From the NCBI GenBank assembly GCA_035645145.1, contig DASQNC010000036.1, forward strand, positions 62,001-126,000: DNA of 64,000 bases. The letters run 5' to 3'. A program made the translations under genes and the position numbers. The notes under the pieces were generated by a model. The model had not been told where the DNA came from, made no database searches, and saw only the letters and a program-made list of their open reading frames with translations. Positions within the stretch are counted from its first letter, which is position 1; each line of letters opens with the position of its first letter. The DNA comes from Azospirillaceae bacterium (GTDB lineage Bacteria > Pseudomonadota > Alphaproteobacteria > Azospirillales > Azospirillaceae). Below are positions 6,360-48,248 of this stretch, in pieces.

Positions 6360-8882
6360 TCAGTCGGCCATCCCGACCATTATCGGCCTTAAGAGAGGGG
6401 AGGAGGGTTCGAGCACGCGCGCGGGCGGAATCCGGACGGTCACCCGGGTGCCTTTTCCAGGCTCGCTCTCCAACTCGAACCCGGCGCCGTGCAATTCCGC
6501 CAGTGCCCGCGCCAGCGGCAGGCCGAGACCGGTCCCGTCATGGCAGCGGACCATGGCGTTCGCGACCTGGCCGAACGGTTCCAACGCGATCTGGATTTCC
6601 CGGGCCGTCATTCCAATGCCGGTGTCCGAAACGCCGACGGCGATGCCGCCGTCCGCGTCGCGTTCGGCCGTCACATCCACGCGACCGCCACGTGGTGTGA
6701 ACTTGACCGAGTTGGACAGCAGGTTGAGCAGGATCTGACGGATTTTGAGCGAGTCCACCAGCACCGGCGGGAGGTCATCGCGAAGGTGGAGGTGGACGGC
6801 GACGCCGGCTTCGTCCGCCCGACCCATTACGACACGCCGCGACCCGGCGATCAATTCGGCCAAATCGACCTTGGTCTCGGACAATTCCTGGCGTCCGGCC
6901 TCGATCTTCGAATAGTCGAGAATGTCGTTGATGATCGCCAGCAGATGGCGCCCGCTGACATGGATGTCGTTGGCGTATTCCAACCGGCGCTTGCCATCGG
7001 CTGCCATATCAAGCCCCAACAGCTCGGCGAAGCCGATGATGGCGTTGAGAGGCGTGCGCAGTTCATGGCTGATGTTGGCAAGGAACTGCGTTTTCGCGCG
7101 GTTGGCCAGTTCGGCGGCGTCCTTCGCCATGCGAAGGGACTGCTCGATCTCGAGCCTCTGGGTCATATCGCGGGCGATCAGGAGGTCGCCGGCCAGGCCG
7201 ACGCCCTTCATGGGAAGCCGGACGATCTCCACCTTCACAAGCGCGCCGTCCAGCCCCTTGATGTCGCAAACCTTCCAGTGGAATCGGCCACATTCGATGG
7301 ATGCGGTGGGCGGCGGCAAATCCTGGTCGACCAGGAAGTCGCTGAACGGCCGGCCGAGAAGGGCGTCCGCGTCCGGCGCTCCCAGCATCAGGCCGCCCGT
7401 CGGGTTGATGTACCGGATCACCCCCTCGTCCAACTGCGCGACGAGTTCGGGAACGGCATCCAGCAGGAAACGATGCCTGGCCTCGCTGGCACGCAGCTCC
7501 TGTTCGGCCCGGCGGCGTTCGGTGACATCCGAGAACGTTTTGATATAGCGGTTGTCCGGCAACTGACGGGTGACGACCTCGATGATCGTGCCGTCCGGGC
7601 GAACGCCCTCGCACATGTTGTCGCCGCCGTGTTGACGCTCCAGGATATCGCGGAGCTTGGCTGCGGCGACGGTGTCCGGATCGCCCGGCCCCAGATCAGC
7701 CTGGGCGGCCAAGCGCCGGAAGAACACGTCCATGTGCGCACGCTTGGCGAAAATGTCCTCTGGCAGGCCGAACATGTCCAGAAGACGCCGGTTGTACGCG
7801 AGGATCCGGCCCTGGTTGGTGGTCAGTATGACGCCCTGGTCGATGTTGTCGAACGTATGCCGCAGAATGTCCGAGCGTTCGGCGATCTCCTCTTCCCTTT
7901 TCTTGAAATGGGTGATGTCCATGCAGACCTGGACAACCTCGCCGAGGGGCGTGTGCTGCTCGGTATAGCTGGTCCATCGCCCGTCCCGCAGTTGGCAGGT
8001 GCCCGCCCCCCCGTTCCGGCGGAGGGCGGTCCAGTTGGCGACGAATGTCTCGAGGTCGACCCCTCCGGTCTCGATCCGCTGCTCCCCGATGCGCCGGACG
8101 AGCTGTTCGAAAGGCAAGCCGGGCACCAGGATGCCCGCCGCCTCGGGCCACATGCCCTGGTAATGGTCGTTGCACCAGACCAGGCGGTCCTCGGCATCCC
8201 ACAGGGCGAACCCCGCCTGTGCCCCGGACAAGGCGGCGCGAAGCTGCTGCTCCATGCGCTCGGCCCGTGACGTGGCCTCCCGCGGCTCGGTCACGTCACG
8301 CACCATGCCGATATAGCCCGCGAAGGTGCCATCGGCATCGAACTTGGGCTGGGCGCTGGCTCGCAGATGGCGAATGCCGCCGTCCTTGTCCCGATAGGTG
8401 TATTCGAATTCCGGGATCGGCGCGTGCGCCGCCACCAACTCCATCAGTCGGTCCCAAGGCGGCGTCCGGGGATCGCCGCCGGCCGCACGAATTGCGTTGG
8501 CACCGATGAGGACCGCAGGGTCAGTGCCGATCGTCTCCCGCAATCGCCCGACAAACTGGGTTACGCGCAAATCGGCATCGCATTGCCAAAGCCAATCCGC
8601 CCCCCCCTCGGCCAGTGCATGGTAGGCCTGCCATTGCGCAAGCAGGTCGGCCGTTTCACACTCCCTCGCACGGAGGGAGGCCCGCAGCGCCGCTCTCTCG
8701 GCCCATAATCCCGCTGCCGCGCCCGTTGCAAGCCCCGCCAGGGCCAGAAGCGATTGATCCGCCAGAGTGAGCGGCACCAGCGCCAATCCGGCACAGGCTG
8801 CAATGATGGGCGAGGCTGTCGCCAGAAGAGTGTACTTCCCCAACCTCGTCCGGCCTACGACCGCTTGCCCGACGCTCGTCAC
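6360..8882 (-). CDS. Membrane multi-PAS sensor histidine kinase
   Basis: This protein of 840 residues is anchored by two N-terminal transmembrane segments (about 17-38 and 42-62) with almost no periplasmic loop, so it probably senses cytoplasmic or redox cues. About four PAS/PAC repeats follow (about 88-590; ends marked by GYIGMVRDVTEP, VCMDITHFKKR, TFSDVTERRRAEQ, LIARDMTQRLE). Next come a HisKA dimerisation domain (ANISHELRTPLNAIIGF) and a HATPase domain (LLNLLSNSVKFTPRGG, DTGIGM, GTGLGLPLARALAELHG). No receiver domain is fused and no response regulator is adjacent, so the partner is unknown. The start is GTG at 8882 with only a weak GGGG upstream. Confidence 0.9.
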   Translation of the reverse strand: MTSVGQAVVGRTRLGKYTLLATASPIIAACAGLALVPLTLADQSLLALAGLATGAAAGLWAERAALRASLRARECETADLLAQWQAYHALAEGGADWLWQCDADLRVTQFVGRLRETIGTDPAVLIGANAIRAAGGDPRTPPWDRLMELVAAHAPIPEFEYTYRDKDGGIRHLRASAQPKFDADGTFAGYIGMVRDVTEPREATSRAERMEQQLRAALSGAQAGFALWDAEDRLVWCNDHYQGMWPEAAGILVPGLPFEQLVRRIGEQRIETGGVDLETFVANWTALRRNGGAGTCQLRDGRWTSYTEQHTPLGEVVQVCMDITHFKKREEEIAERSDILRHTFDNIDQGVILTTNQGRILAYNRRLLDMFGLPEDIFAKRAHMDVFFRRLAAQADLGPGDPDTVAAAKLRDILERQHGGDNMCEGVRPDGTIIEVVTRQLPDNRYIKTFSDVTERRRAEQELRASEARHRFLLDAVPELVAQLDEGVIRYINPTGGLMLGAPDADALLGRPFSDFLVDQDLPPPTASIECGRFHWKVCDIKGLDGALVKVEIVRLPMKGVGLAGDLLIARDMTQRLEIEQSLRMAKDAAELANRAKTQFLANISHELRTPLNAIIGFAELLGLDMAADGKRRLEYANDIHVSGRHLLAIINDILDYSKIEAGRQELSETKVDLAELIAGSRRVVMGRADEAGVAVHLHLRDDLPPVLVDSLKIRQILLNLLSNSVKFTPRGGRVDVTAERDADGGIAVGVSDTGIGMTAREIQIALEPFGQVANAMVRCHDGTGLGLPLARALAELHGAGFELESEPGKGTRVTVRIPPARVLEPSSPLLRPIMVGMAD

Positions 8883-12403: not shown

Positions 12404-13042
12404 ATGATCCTGACCCCCATTCCGCCGGAGGAGCTGCCCACGGCCCTGGCCGCCGTCGAGGCACGCCTTGCCGGCGACGCGACCGCGCTCGCCGCCTTTC
12501 GCCGCATTGCCGCAACCCAGGCCCTGGTGCCGCTCGGGGTGGACCTGCCCGAACACCGCGCGGCCGCCATCGCACTGGCGCAGGCGCTCGGCATCGGCAC
12601 CCTGGACGAAGAGCCCGCGCAGGGCTTCTCGTGGGATGGACAGGTGGTGCGCACCCGCAGCGAGGCATGGGTCCTGCTGCACGAGATTGCGCACTGGCAA
12701 CTTTGCCCGCCGGGGCGTCGCCACCTCCCCGACTTCGGCCTGGGAGCCGGCCCGGAGACCGGGTTGCGCAGTGAGGCGGATGCCGCCTGCTGCACGGACT
12801 TCCACGAGCGCGAGCGGGAGGAACAGCTCTCGTCCCTGCTGGGCATCCTGTGGGAAGCGGAGCTGGGGCAGCCCGCCATCCTCGCCTTCCAGGAACAGAA
12901 CTGGCTGGAATCCTGGGACCGGCCCGCCTGCGCGGCATTCTTCCAGGGTGCGGTCGCCGAATTGTTGGAGCGCGGGCGGATCGGCCCGGACGGACGCCCG
13001 GTGGAACACGGGCGGATCGTCGGACTGAACCGCGCGGCATAG
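12404..13042 (+). CDS. EpmC-like (elongation factor P hydroxylase family) metalloprotein
   Basis: The protein has 212 residues and a metal-site motif LLHEIAHWQLCPPGRRHL followed by PDFGLGAGPE. This matches the order HEI(S/A)HW, RR, DFG seen in EpmC/YfcM of E. coli, which hydroxylates the modified lysine of elongation factor P. The C-terminal part (EEQLSSLLGILWEAELGQPA) also parallels that family. An HExxH motif alone could mean a peptidase, so the assignment rests on the surrounding pattern. No epmA, epmB or efp is adjacent, and the N-terminal 75 residues are not obviously EpmC. Confidence 0.55.
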   Translation: MILTPIPPEELPTALAAVEARLAGDATALAAFRRIAATQALVPLGVDLPEHRAAAIALAQALGIGTLDEEPAQGFSWDGQVVRTRSEAWVLLHEIAHWQLCPPGRRHLPDFGLGAGPETGLRSEADAACCTDFHEREREEQLSSLLGILWEAELGQPAILAFQEQNWLESWDRPACAAFFQGAVAELLERGRIGPDGRPVEHGRIVGLNRAA

Positions 13043-13095: not shown

Positions 13096-13108
13096 ATCAA
13101 CATTGACG
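13096..13108 (+). promoter_or_regulatory. 13-base motif upstream of the HTH-citrate synthase gene, shared with the second citrate synthase gene
   Basis: ATCAACATTGACG ends one base before the ATG at 13110. The core TCAA-CA-TTGA is an imperfectly spaced inverted repeat. An unrelated perfect inverted repeat TTGCCG-N5-CGGCAA precedes it at 13075-13091. The identical 13-mer occurs at 47057-47069 before the other citrate synthase gene. It may be an operator. TTGACG could also act as a -35 box, but a matching -10 would then fall inside the coding region. Confidence 0.5.
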
Positions 13109-13109
13109 G

Positions 13110-14312
13110 ATGGTCGACCCCCGTTACCTCAGCGCGCGGGAGGCGGCAGCGGAATTGGGAATTTCGCTGCCCACCCTCTACGCCTATGTCAGCCGCGGCC
13201 TCATTCGATCGGAAGGCAAGTTCGGCAGCCGCCAACGCCTCTACCGCGCCGAGGATGTCCGCGCGCTGCTGGACCGGCGCGACCGGGACCGGGGTGCCGA
13301 AGAGGAAGCGCGCGCGGCCCTCAAGGCCGGCCCGCCGGTTCTGGACTCGGCCATCACCCTGATCACCGCCGACCGCATCTACTACCGGGGCCGGGATCTG
13401 GCGCGGCTGGCGGAAGACGGTTCGGTCGAAAGCGTGGCGGCGCTCCTTTGGGATTGCGATGCCGAGGATCCCTTCGCCCAGCCGCCGCCCGTCGCCCCAG
13501 CCGGCTTCGAGGCGGCCCTGGGGGCGGCGTCGGGTCTGGCGCCGATCGAACGGGCGCAGGCGCTGCTGCCCATCGTGCTCGGGGCCGAACCGACCAGCTT
13601 CAATCTAACGCCGGCCGGTGTCGCCCGCACCGGCGCGCGGGTGGTGCGATGGCTGGCGGCGCTCCTGGCGGGCCGCACGGTGTCGGCGGCCCCGATCCAT
13701 TCCGCCCTGGCCGAGGCCTGGAACGTGGACGGACCCGCGGCGGCGCTGGTCCGTGCGGCGCTGGTGGCCTGCATGGACCACGAACTCAATGCTTCCACCT
13801 TCACCGTGCGCGTGGTCGCGTCCACCGGTGCCACGCCGGTGGGCGCGGTGGCGGCGGGCTTGGCGGCGCTGCGCGGCCCGCGGCATGGCGGCATGACGGA
13901 GCGCGTGGGGGCCGTGCTTCCGGCCCTGCTGGCGGAGGCCGATCCGGCGGCTGCCCTGGCGGACCGGCTCAGGCGTGGCGACGACCTGCCCGGCTTCGGC
14001 CACCCCCTGTACCCGGACGGCGATCCGCGCGCCCGGATCCTGCTGCACCTGCTCGACCGCGCCTACCCGCGCGATCCCATGCTGTCGTCGGCCAAGCGGC
14101 TGGCCGCCGCCGCCCGCGACATCGCGGGACAGCCGCCGACGATCGACTTCGCATTGGTTCTTCTGGCCCACCGGCTGGACCTGCCGGCATCCGCCCCGTT
14201 GACGCTGTTCGCAACCGGGCGGTCGGTGGGCTGGATCGCGCATGCGATGGAGCAGTACCAGACCGGTTCCCTCATCCGACCGCGGGCCCGCTATGTCGGG
14301 GCGCACCCTTGA
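13110..14312 (+). CDS. Citrate synthase-family protein with N-terminal MerR/excisionase-like HTH domain
   Basis: This protein of 400 residues combines a DNA-binding-like N-terminus with a citrate/2-methylcitrate synthase body. Residues 1-50 read YLSAREAAAELGISLPTLYA then RLYRAEDV, the pattern of MerR/excisionase winged helix-turn-helix domains. The enzyme part keeps the substrate-binding His in MDHELNASTF, the catalytic His in GFGHPLYPDGDPRA (Pro replaces the usual Arg after His), the probable catalytic Asp in PTIDFALV, and the C-terminal GWIAHAMEQY and IRPRARYVG. It could condense acetyl- or propionyl-CoA with oxaloacetate, regulate transcription, or do both. Its stop overlaps the next gene's start (TTGA). 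The ribosome site is weak. A second citrate synthase lies at 47127. Confidence 0.9.
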   Translation: MVDPRYLSAREAAAELGISLPTLYAYVSRGLIRSEGKFGSRQRLYRAEDVRALLDRRDRDRGAEEEARAALKAGPPVLDSAITLITADRIYYRGRDLARLAEDGSVESVAALLWDCDAEDPFAQPPPVAPAGFEAALGAASGLAPIERAQALLPIVLGAEPTSFNLTPAGVARTGARVVRWLAALLAGRTVSAAPIHSALAEAWNVDGPAAALVRAALVACMDHELNASTFTVRVVASTGATPVGAVAAGLAALRGPRHGGMTERVGAVLPALLAEADPAAALADRLRRGDDLPGFGHPLYPDGDPRARILLHLLDRAYPRDPMLSSAKRLAAAARDIAGQPPTIDFALVLLAHRLDLPASAPLTLFATGRSVGWIAHAMEQYQTGSLIRPRARYVGAHP

Positions 14313-15190
14313 CCGCCGGGTTAAAGCCCGAGGTCCACGGTGCCGGCTACATCCTGCTGGCCGGACTGATCTTCATCACCTCCACCGGGATCATCAAGCA
14401 CCTGACCACCGGTTTGCCGGAAGCCGTCGTGGTGCTGCTCCGCAGCGTGTTCGCCGCCGCCGCCTTCCTGCCCCTGATCCTGAAAAGCCGCGGGCGCATC
14501 CTGCGCACCGCCCGGCCCTTCGGCCATGCGTGGCGGACCTTCGTCGGCATGGCCAGCTTCTTCGCCTATGTGCATGCGGTGGCGCATCTGCCGATGGGCG
14601 ATGCCGTCACGCTGTCCTTCACCACACCGATGTGGTCCACGCTGCTCGGCGTGCTGATGCTGGGCGAACGGCTCGGAGCCGGACGTGTGCTGGCGCTGCT
14701 GGCCGGGTTCGGAGGCGTGATGTTGATCGCCAAGCCCACCGGCTCCGTGGCCGACATACAGCCGGCGGTGCTCGTCGCGCTCGGCGGAGCCGCCTGCACC
14801 AGCCTGGCCATGCTGTCGGTGAAGACGTTGTCGCGCACCGAGCCGCCCGACCGGATCGCGCTCTATTTCCTGCTCATCGGCATCCTGTTCGCGGCCCCGC
14901 CCGCGGTCCTCGACTGGCGCACACCCGACGAGGTGGAGTGGCTGTGGCTGGTCCTGCTGGGCCTGATGACGGCCGTCGGCCAAGTGGCGCTGTCGCGCGG
15001 CTATGCGCTGGGCACCTTTTCCCGCATGGCACCGCTGGACTTCGCCCGGCTGCCGATGGCGCTCCTGATCGGTTTCGCCGCATTCGGCGAGGTGCCCGAC
15101 ACTTGGTCGGGATTGGGAATGGCGGTGATCGCCGCGGCGTCGTTGTACGTGGTCCTGGGCGGCGCCACGGCCGCGAAGCCGCGGGCCTGA
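14309..15190 (+). CDS. DMT-superfamily EamA transporter
   Basis: The protein has 293 residues and about ten transmembrane segments in two five-helix EamA repeats. Family features include LRSVFAAAAFLPL, FFAYVHAVAHLPMGDAVTLS at the end of repeat one, and QVALSRGYALGTFSRMAPLD in repeat two. Members of this group export amino acids, nucleotides or other metabolites. The TTG start overlaps the stop of the HTH-citrate synthase (TTGA), so the two are probably co-translated, and export of a carboxylate-linked metabolite is a reasonable guess. The substrate cannot be read from sequence. Confidence 0.85.
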   Translation: MTAGLKPEVHGAGYILLAGLIFITSTGIIKHLTTGLPEAVVVLLRSVFAAAAFLPLILKSRGRILRTARPFGHAWRTFVGMASFFAYVHAVAHLPMGDAVTLSFTTPMWSTLLGVLMLGERLGAGRVLALLAGFGGVMLIAKPTGSVADIQPAVLVALGGAACTSLAMLSVKTLSRTEPPDRIALYFLLIGILFAAPPAVLDWRTPDEVEWLWLVLLGLMTAVGQVALSRGYALGTFSRMAPLDFARLPMALLIGFAAFGEVPDTWSGLGMAVIAAASLYVVLGGATAAKPRA

Positions 15191-47043: not shown

Positions 47044-47069
47044 GTTGATTGCATTAATCAACATTGACG
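47044..47069 (+). promoter_or_regulatory. Inverted repeat plus shared 13-mer upstream of the second citrate synthase gene
   Basis: GTTGATT-GCATT-AATCAAC is a perfect 7-base inverted repeat at 47044-47062. It overlaps ATCAACATTGACG (47057-47069), which is identical to bases 13096-13108 before the HTH-citrate synthase gene. Half-sites TTGA/TCAA occur three times here. It lies 57 bases before the ATG and is AT-rich against the GC-rich background, so an operator or promoter is likely. Confidence 0.6.
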
Positions 47070-47126: not shown

Positions 47127-48248
47127 ATGTCCGGCGTCCCCACCGTCGCGAATTCCGGCCTTGATGGCGTCATCGCCGCGGAGACCGTCCTGAGTCACGT
47201 GGATGGTGAACGCGGATTGTTGATCGTCTGCGGCGAACGGATCGAGGATCTGGCCGGCCGGATCGGGTTCGAGGAGTTGGCGGCCGCTCTCTGGACCGCA
47301 GCCGGAACCCCGACCACCGTGGCGGCCGCCCGCCCAGCCATCGGCGAAGCGCGGGCGGCGGCGGCCCGGCTCGTGCCGGCCCTGCTCCCCGCCGTTGCGG
47401 GCCTTACCCCAGTGGAGGGATTGCGGCTGATGCTGGCCGCCCTCCCCGATGCCGCCCCCATGCCCCCCCATATCCTGGCGGTCGGCGCGATTCCCGTCTT
47501 CATCGCCGCCCAGGCCCGCGCGGCACGCGGGCTGGAGGCGCTGACACCGGATCCGGGCGCGGGGCACGCGGCCGACTTCCTGCGCCTGCTGGCCGGAACG
47601 CCCCCTTCCGCGGCGGCGGCACGGGCGCTCGATGCCTATCTGGTCACCGTCGCCGACCATGGCCTGAACGCTTCGACCTTCACCGCGCGGGTGGTCGCCT
47701 CCACCCGGGCCGGCACGCCTTCCGCAATCGTGGCGGCGCTCTGCGCGCTCAAAGGCCCGCTGCACGGGGGCGCACCGGGACCGGTGCTCGACATGCTGGA
47801 CGAGATCGGCACGCCCGAACGGATCGAGGGCTGGATCGAGGCACGGCTTGCCGCGGGCGAACGACTGATGGGATTCGGGCACCGCATCTACCGGGTCCGC
47901 GACCCGCGTGCCGACGTGTTGAAGCGCGCCGTCACCGAATTGCGGGTGGCCGGAACGGATGCGGAGTCCACCCACCGGCTTTCCTTCGCCGAACAGGTGG
48001 AACACGCGGCGCACGCGGCGCTTGCCCGCCATCGGCCCGGCCGGCGGCTGGATACCAACGTGGAGTTCTACACGGCGCTGCTGCTGGAGGCACTCGGCCT
48101 GCCGCGGGCCCTGTTCACCCCGGTGTTTGCCATGGGCCGGGCCGCGGGATGGACCGCCCATGTCATGGAACAGGTGGGGACGGGCCGCATCATCCGGCCG
48201 GACAGCCGCTACATCGGCGCTTGGCCGAGAAACGCCGAAGCGGCCTGA
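47127..48248 (+). CDS. Citrate synthase / 2-methylcitrate synthase-family protein
   Basis: The protein has 373 residues from the ATG at 47127, which follows GAGGAG. Citrate synthase landmarks are ADHGLNASTFTARVVASTR, LCALKGPLHGGAPGPVLDML, the catalytic His in RLMGFGHRIYRVRDPRADVL, and AAGWTAHVMEQ with IIRPDSRYIG at the end. The catalytic Asp of the usual PNVDFY motif is Glu here (DTNVEFYTALLLEALGL). The protein is a paralogue of the HTH-fused enzyme at 13110 and lacks its N-terminal DNA-binding domain. The substrate may be oxaloacetate with acetyl- or propionyl-CoA. Confidence 0.9.
   Translation: MSGVPTVANSGLDGVIAAETVLSHVDGERGLLIVCGERIEDLAGRIGFEELAAALWTAAGTPTTVAAARPAIGEARAAAARLVPALLPAVAGLTPVEGLRLMLAALPDAAPMPPHILAVGAIPVFIAAQARAARGLEALTPDPGAGHAADFLRLLAGTPPSAAAARALDAYLVTVADHGLNASTFTARVVASTRAGTPSAIVAALCALKGPLHGGAPGPVLDMLDEIGTPERIEGWIEARLAAGERLMGFGHRIYRVRDPRADVLKRAVTELRVAGTDAESTHRLSFAEQVEHAAHAALARHRPGRRLDTNVEFYTALLLEALGLPRALFTPVFAMGRAAGWTAHVMEQVGTGRIIRPDSRYIGAWPRNAEAA

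Follow-up and report, generated by a model that had tools for sequence, protein, structure and literature searches.

A 13-mer shared by two citrate synthase genes as the core of a predicted operator for a candidate regulator with a citrate synthase fold

Background

The protein described here, which we call HTH-CS, has its closest described relatives in two groups. With MerR/HTH_17 (excisionase-like) proteins it shares an N-terminal HTH_17 domain and a weak similarity to SoxR, whereas its C-terminal domain has a citrate-synthase fold and is not a known MerR effector domain. With citrate synthase and 2-methylcitrate synthase (PrpC) it shares the fold and the catalytic residues, but HTH-CS has an added HTH, and it lies next to true CS2 or PrpC genes, which it probably controls, CS2 being the second citrate synthase gene of the window (the whole stretch of 64,000 nucleotides analysed here).

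A citrate synthase paralogue in a regulatory role is known from Caulobacter, where CitA is a moonlighting citrate synthase with the paralogues CitB and CitC (eLife 2020, PMC7083601). In contrast to the proposed role of HTH-CS, CitA acts on CtrA, and a helix-turn-helix is nowhere mentioned (PMC7083601). The citB gene is functional, citC failed to complement an E. coli gltA mutant, and their locus tags are consecutive (PMC7083601). By analogy, citB and citC may be a CS2/HTH-CS pair.

The known regulators of prp genes are PrpR of the Fis family and GntR-family factors (PMC9765439). As we propose for HTH-CS in Xanthomonadales loci, where it is divergent from such genes, they control genes of the methylcitrate cycle, but they belong to other protein families. 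Our literature search for an HTH-citrate synthase regulator found no paper; an earlier prediction is possible, a 2012 study of propionate regulators having been outside the search. That comparative study reportedly covers the regulators and regulons of both malonate and propionate. Here we computed the site upstream of the two genes, its conservation, its co-occurrence with HTH-CS and the domain architecture of the protein.

Results and discussion

An AT-rich 13-mer occurs twice in the genome, at two citrate synthase genes

A sequence-only reading of the window had reported that one 13-mer, ATCAACATTGACG, stands upstream of two citrate synthase genes on the same strand and in the same orientation, and exact copies were found at both positions (Table 1). 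A single base separates the first copy from the HTH-CS ATG at 13110, and 57 bases lie between the end of the second copy and the start of CS2 at 47127. Searching the whole genome (3.89 Mb) returned two exact matches, both in the window, and the reversed control of ATCAACATTGACG returned none in the same search. The claim that such a pair is unlikely to arise by chance is borne out as well: a first-order Markov model puts the expected number at 0.001 for 64 kb and at 0.065 for the genome, compared to the two copies observed, and 372 different 13-mers are repeated in the window with ATCAACATTGACG being the only one that has at least eight A or T.

The same reading had proposed a genome-wide search for the motif and for relaxed versions of its dyad. 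The relaxed dyad RTCAANNTTGAY matches both 13-mer sites and two more sites lacking a pyrimidine at the fifth core position, and the number of its matches in the whole genome is not above that of the reversed control pattern. The motif is not scattered, its exact copies being found only at these two genes. The genome contains four citrate-synthase-family genes (one on contig C25, two on C36 and one on C51), and the box is present at only the two genes of the window. It is also missing from the CS2-like paralogues of genus g3, which are 51-52% identical. CS2 itself carries a Glu at the Asp362 position, a replacement that our alignment also places in B. subtilis citrate synthase 2c6x. As a separate observation, a citrate-synthase-family gene without an operator is found beside a CaiB-type CoA-transferase frame (G000:C51:11785-12486; L006, L007).

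A longer predicted operator contains the 13-mer as its core

We compared the regions upstream of HTH-CS orthologues, where the motif is strongly conserved, and this comparison identifies the 13-mer as the core of a longer predicted operator, TCAAYNTTGAT-N7-ATCAA. In these regions TCAAYNTTGAT is followed by seven bases and ATCAA, often with an AT-rich ATAT thereafter, and the 13-mer corresponds to the reverse complement of the operator core CGTCAATGTTGAT. The sequence at 47044-47069, GTTGATTGCATTAATCAACATTGACG, contains an additional perfect 7-bp inverted repeat, GTTGATT-GCATT-AATCAAC.

The site directly upstream of HTH-CS is different. Its core dyad has the orientation opposite to that of the orthologues and occupies the position of their gene-proximal half-site. 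The idea of an equal motif at both genes is thus right for the 13-mer, which is identical, and does not extend to the sites, which are not equivalent since the full operator is present only at CS2. With only a core box in reversed orientation relative to the orthologues, autoregulation of HTH-CS in the window may be weak or lost. One possible history is that the half-site ATCAACAT survived and regained a TTGA partner after the pair had separated.

Table 1. Positions of the genes and predicted operator elements in the window
Feature	Position	Strand	Description
13-mer ATCAACATTGACG	13096-13108 and 47057-47069	+ (both)	Exact copies
Core operator box, predicted (TCAACATTGA dyad)	13096-13108	+	Directly upstream of HTH-CS; second operator half absent
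HTH-CS, proposed regulator	13110-14312	+	HTH_17/MerR-like DNA-binding domain (residues 6-57) fused to citrate-synthase fold; Pfam, AlphaFold and PDB matches
Full operator, predicted, GTTGATTGCATTAATCAACATTGACG (reverse complement CGTCAATGTTGATTAATGCAATCAAC)	47044-47069	.	Upstream of CS2; 0 mismatches to family pattern
Core of CS2 operator, predicted (second exact 13-mer)	47057-47069	+	Exact match
CS2, second citrate synthase, proposed target	47127-48248	+	B. subtilis CitA-like; Glu replaces catalytic Asp362

The hexamer TTGACG at 47064-47069, inside the second 13-mer, resembles a −35 hexamer and may be the −35 element of the CS2 promoter. A sigma-70 promoter scan at both 13-mer sites gave no full match. 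The resemblance to a −35 box would be in line with the repeated 13-mer being a promoter element without a specific regulator, an explanation that, like a plain chance match, we find very improbable. The 0.065 copies expected per genome, the lack of a sigma-70 match at either site, the conservation, across classes, of a dyad about 23 bases long and its absence from related genomes without HTH-CS all argue against it.

HTH-CS combines an HTH_17 domain with a citrate synthase fold

HTH-CS has an HTH_17 domain scoring 37.7 bits against Pfam PF12728 (cut-off 27) and a citrate synthase domain scoring 204.8 bits against PF00285 (cut-off 27), while its scores against the MerR models PF00376 and PF13411 are below their cut-offs. 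The AlphaFold model has a mean pLDDT of 89.5 with a low-confidence linker at residues 62-77, and its residues 69-391 match citrate and methylcitrate synthases in a fold comparison that barely tests the HTH part. The match to 3hwk has a VIA Z of 34.9 and an rmsd of 3.0 with 320 aligned, and 1ixe also reaches a Z of about 35. Using the HTH part alone, a PDB sequence search gave weak matches only (E about 0.3), namely SoxR and another MerR-family chain. Across 40 diverse members, L23 to G30 (LYAYVSRG), R41 and Y45 in the recognition-helix region are invariant or nearly so, as expected if these residues read a constant DNA site.

Downstream, the frame of an EamA-type transporter (14309-15190) has a possible TTG start overlapping the HTH-CS stop codon, and this frame is possibly co-transcribed with HTH-CS.

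In the HTH-CS of the window, the E. coli citrate synthase residues His264, His305, Arg314, Asp362, Arg387 and Arg407 all have their equivalents. Of the 104 HTH-CS aligned, 101 keep these six catalytic residues, so many members may also be enzymes. It is conceivable that HTH-CS is a trigger enzyme, that is, not purely a sensor but an active (methyl)citrate synthase isozyme which in addition binds the operator and couples catalysis to regulation. The conserved active site and the closeness of the modelled fold to citrate and methylcitrate synthases are consistent with this explanation, which we regard as possible though doubtful: conservation of the active site is also expected for ligand sensing, HTH-CS falls far below every NCBIfam citrate synthase cut-off, and a 39%-identical HTH-CS subgroup (L032-L034) has lost the catalytic residues yet keeps the HTH and the core box.

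The predicted operator usually lies between HTH-CS and a divergent partner

The HTH-CS loci were drawn from three sources, namely the window's family, a 289-genome sample of its class, and a set of named genomes in which Burkholderiales and Xanthomonadales predominate. The operator core is present within 250 bp upstream in 124 of the 131 loci, mostly alpha-, beta- and gammaproteobacterial, with the remaining seven having no recognisable core within this distance. For the first locus set the core was found in 100 of 104 loci compared to 0.1% of upstream sequences in which single letters had been shuffled.

The usual position of the operator elsewhere is between HTH-CS and a divergent target. 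The divergent neighbour over the 131 loci is CaiB/BaiF in 63 (labelled from the NCBIfam matches of one member, all under equivalog cut-offs), CS2 in 27, PrpB in 23 (labelled by NCBIfam on an N-terminal stretch) and another gene in 18. CS2, CaiB or PrpB is thus divergent from HTH-CS in 113 loci, giving the relatives the arrangement of a divergon around one conserved predicted operator. The partner varies with the taxon: most alphaproteobacteria have CS2 there, whereas a CaiB/BaiF CoA-transferase takes this place in Burkholderiales and in some of the alphaproteobacteria, and prpBC in Xanthomonadales. A PrpC-like citrate synthase follows PrpB in both loci read. HTH-CS and CS2 form a divergent pair in six g11 genomes, where about 93-103 bp separate the two matches.

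Several further observations concern the partners and the taxa. HTH-CS is divergent from prpBC in L059, L080 and other Xanthomonadales loci, where it may control the methylcitrate cycle alongside PrpR or in its place. In the L032-L034 subgroup the divergent gene has about 478 codons and is taken as AtuA-like by eye only. HTH-CS with a proteobacterial-type operator is also found in MAGs labelled Anaerolineae, Bacteroidetes and Bryobacterales (L047, L048 and L102), labels that may reflect binning error or horizontal transfer.

Operator and HTH-CS occur together across genomes

In the window's family, the exact full operator RTCAAYNTTGATNNNNNNRATCAA is confined to genomes with HTH-CS. It is present in 15 of 19 such genomes compared to none of 58 without (Fisher p 1.1e-12), and allowing one mismatch gives 19/19 compared to 5/58 (p 8.4e-14), where 'without' means that no HTH-CS was found at E<=1e-30 and where the p-values overstate independence because the family genomes are related. 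Most family genomes have a single operator match, adjoining HTH-CS.

Two genomes are informative for the relation of the site to its target. In G073 the operator is lacking at HTH-CS (L011); the genome has a single one (L149, G073:C219:41654-41677), on another contig upstream of a CaiB-like gene, which was identified from its translation by eye. An operator before this unlinked gene and none at HTH-CS suggests that the site goes with the target. In the window's congener G052, no HTH-CS was found at E<=1e-30. Its CS2 (L137, G052:C126, around 6564-6587 and downstream) is reduced to a fragment with about 30 recognisable codons, flanked as in the window by the phytase-like and histidine kinase genes, and its operator has a core changed to GTGAATATTGAT.

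Co-occurrence of this kind would also be seen if another regulator, co-inherited with the locus, binds the box while the HTH of HTH-CS reads something else. Such a regulator, whether co-inherited or unlinked, would be compatible with the footprints, the HTH-CS site of the window is atypical, and TTGATT-N-AATCAA dyads resemble the sites of other families such as MarR. We nevertheless judge this explanation unlikely: the presence of the operator tracks HTH-CS across genomes and across changing divergent partners, and in the loci read the operator has no other regulator gene as a recurrent neighbour. The reading of one regulator for both citrate synthase genes is supported by the rarity of the motif in the genome and its conservation upstream of orthologues. 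HTH-CS itself, which had been hinted at as a possible regulator, is the best candidate given the co-occurrence, the divergent arrangement and the near-invariant HTH residues.

The HTH-CS/CS2 pair is split in the window

The divergent arrangement of the relatives is not seen in the window. With HTH-CS and CS2 lying 34 kb apart on one strand, the window is a split version of it. The gene order phytase-CS2-histidine kinase is common to the window and the G052 locus of the CS2 fragment, and thus the separation of HTH-CS and CS2 may be older than the divergence of the two species.

A 34-kb inversion could have split the pair, but we found no support for this. The gene at 12404-13042, upstream of HTH-CS, is conserved in relatives, and their loci have no neighbour of this gene in common with the HTH-CS, CS2, EamA or phytase regions of the window. 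A staggered-break origin of the two 13-mer copies is unlikely since the boxes are direct and not inverted repeats.

Proposed regulation by HTH-CS

Taken together, we consider it highly likely that the 13-mer is the core of a predicted HTH-CS site and that HTH-CS is a one-component regulator of its own gene and of CS2. The MerR-like/HTH_17 domain would bind TCAAYNTTGA-type dyads, and HTH-CS would control its own gene together with a target making or using the same kind of metabolite, CS2 here and a CaiB/BaiF CoA-transferase or prpBC elsewhere. The ligand of the citrate-synthase domain is probably acyl-CoA, oxaloacetate or (methyl)citrate, which would alter DNA binding. We infer HTH-CS as the binder, the identity of the ligand and the sign of control. 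Repression relieved by the ligand is somewhat more likely than activation, as the core is found next to the start codon of HTH-CS and overlaps the −35-like TTGACG before CS2.

Conclusions

The initial reading was correct on the site and, as far as the present comparisons support it, on the shared control of both genes, and the finding is broader than first seen. The sequence evidence makes a well-supported case for an operator of a little-studied regulator family. It is probable that this family is widespread, that its metabolite sensor is an entire citrate-synthase fold whose active site is usually intact, and that it controls a neighbouring acyl-CoA/oxaloacetate step (CS2, prpBC or CoA-transferase) through one operator conserved in three classes of Proteobacteria. 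For a regulator that would sense through a citrate synthase fold, the analysis provides a defined candidate pair of protein and DNA site together with a consensus and predicted targets, and it makes a transcriptional reading of acetyl-CoA, propionyl-CoA, oxaloacetate or citrate directly testable. Finally, it points to a role for many "citrate synthase family protein" genes otherwise taken for enzymes.
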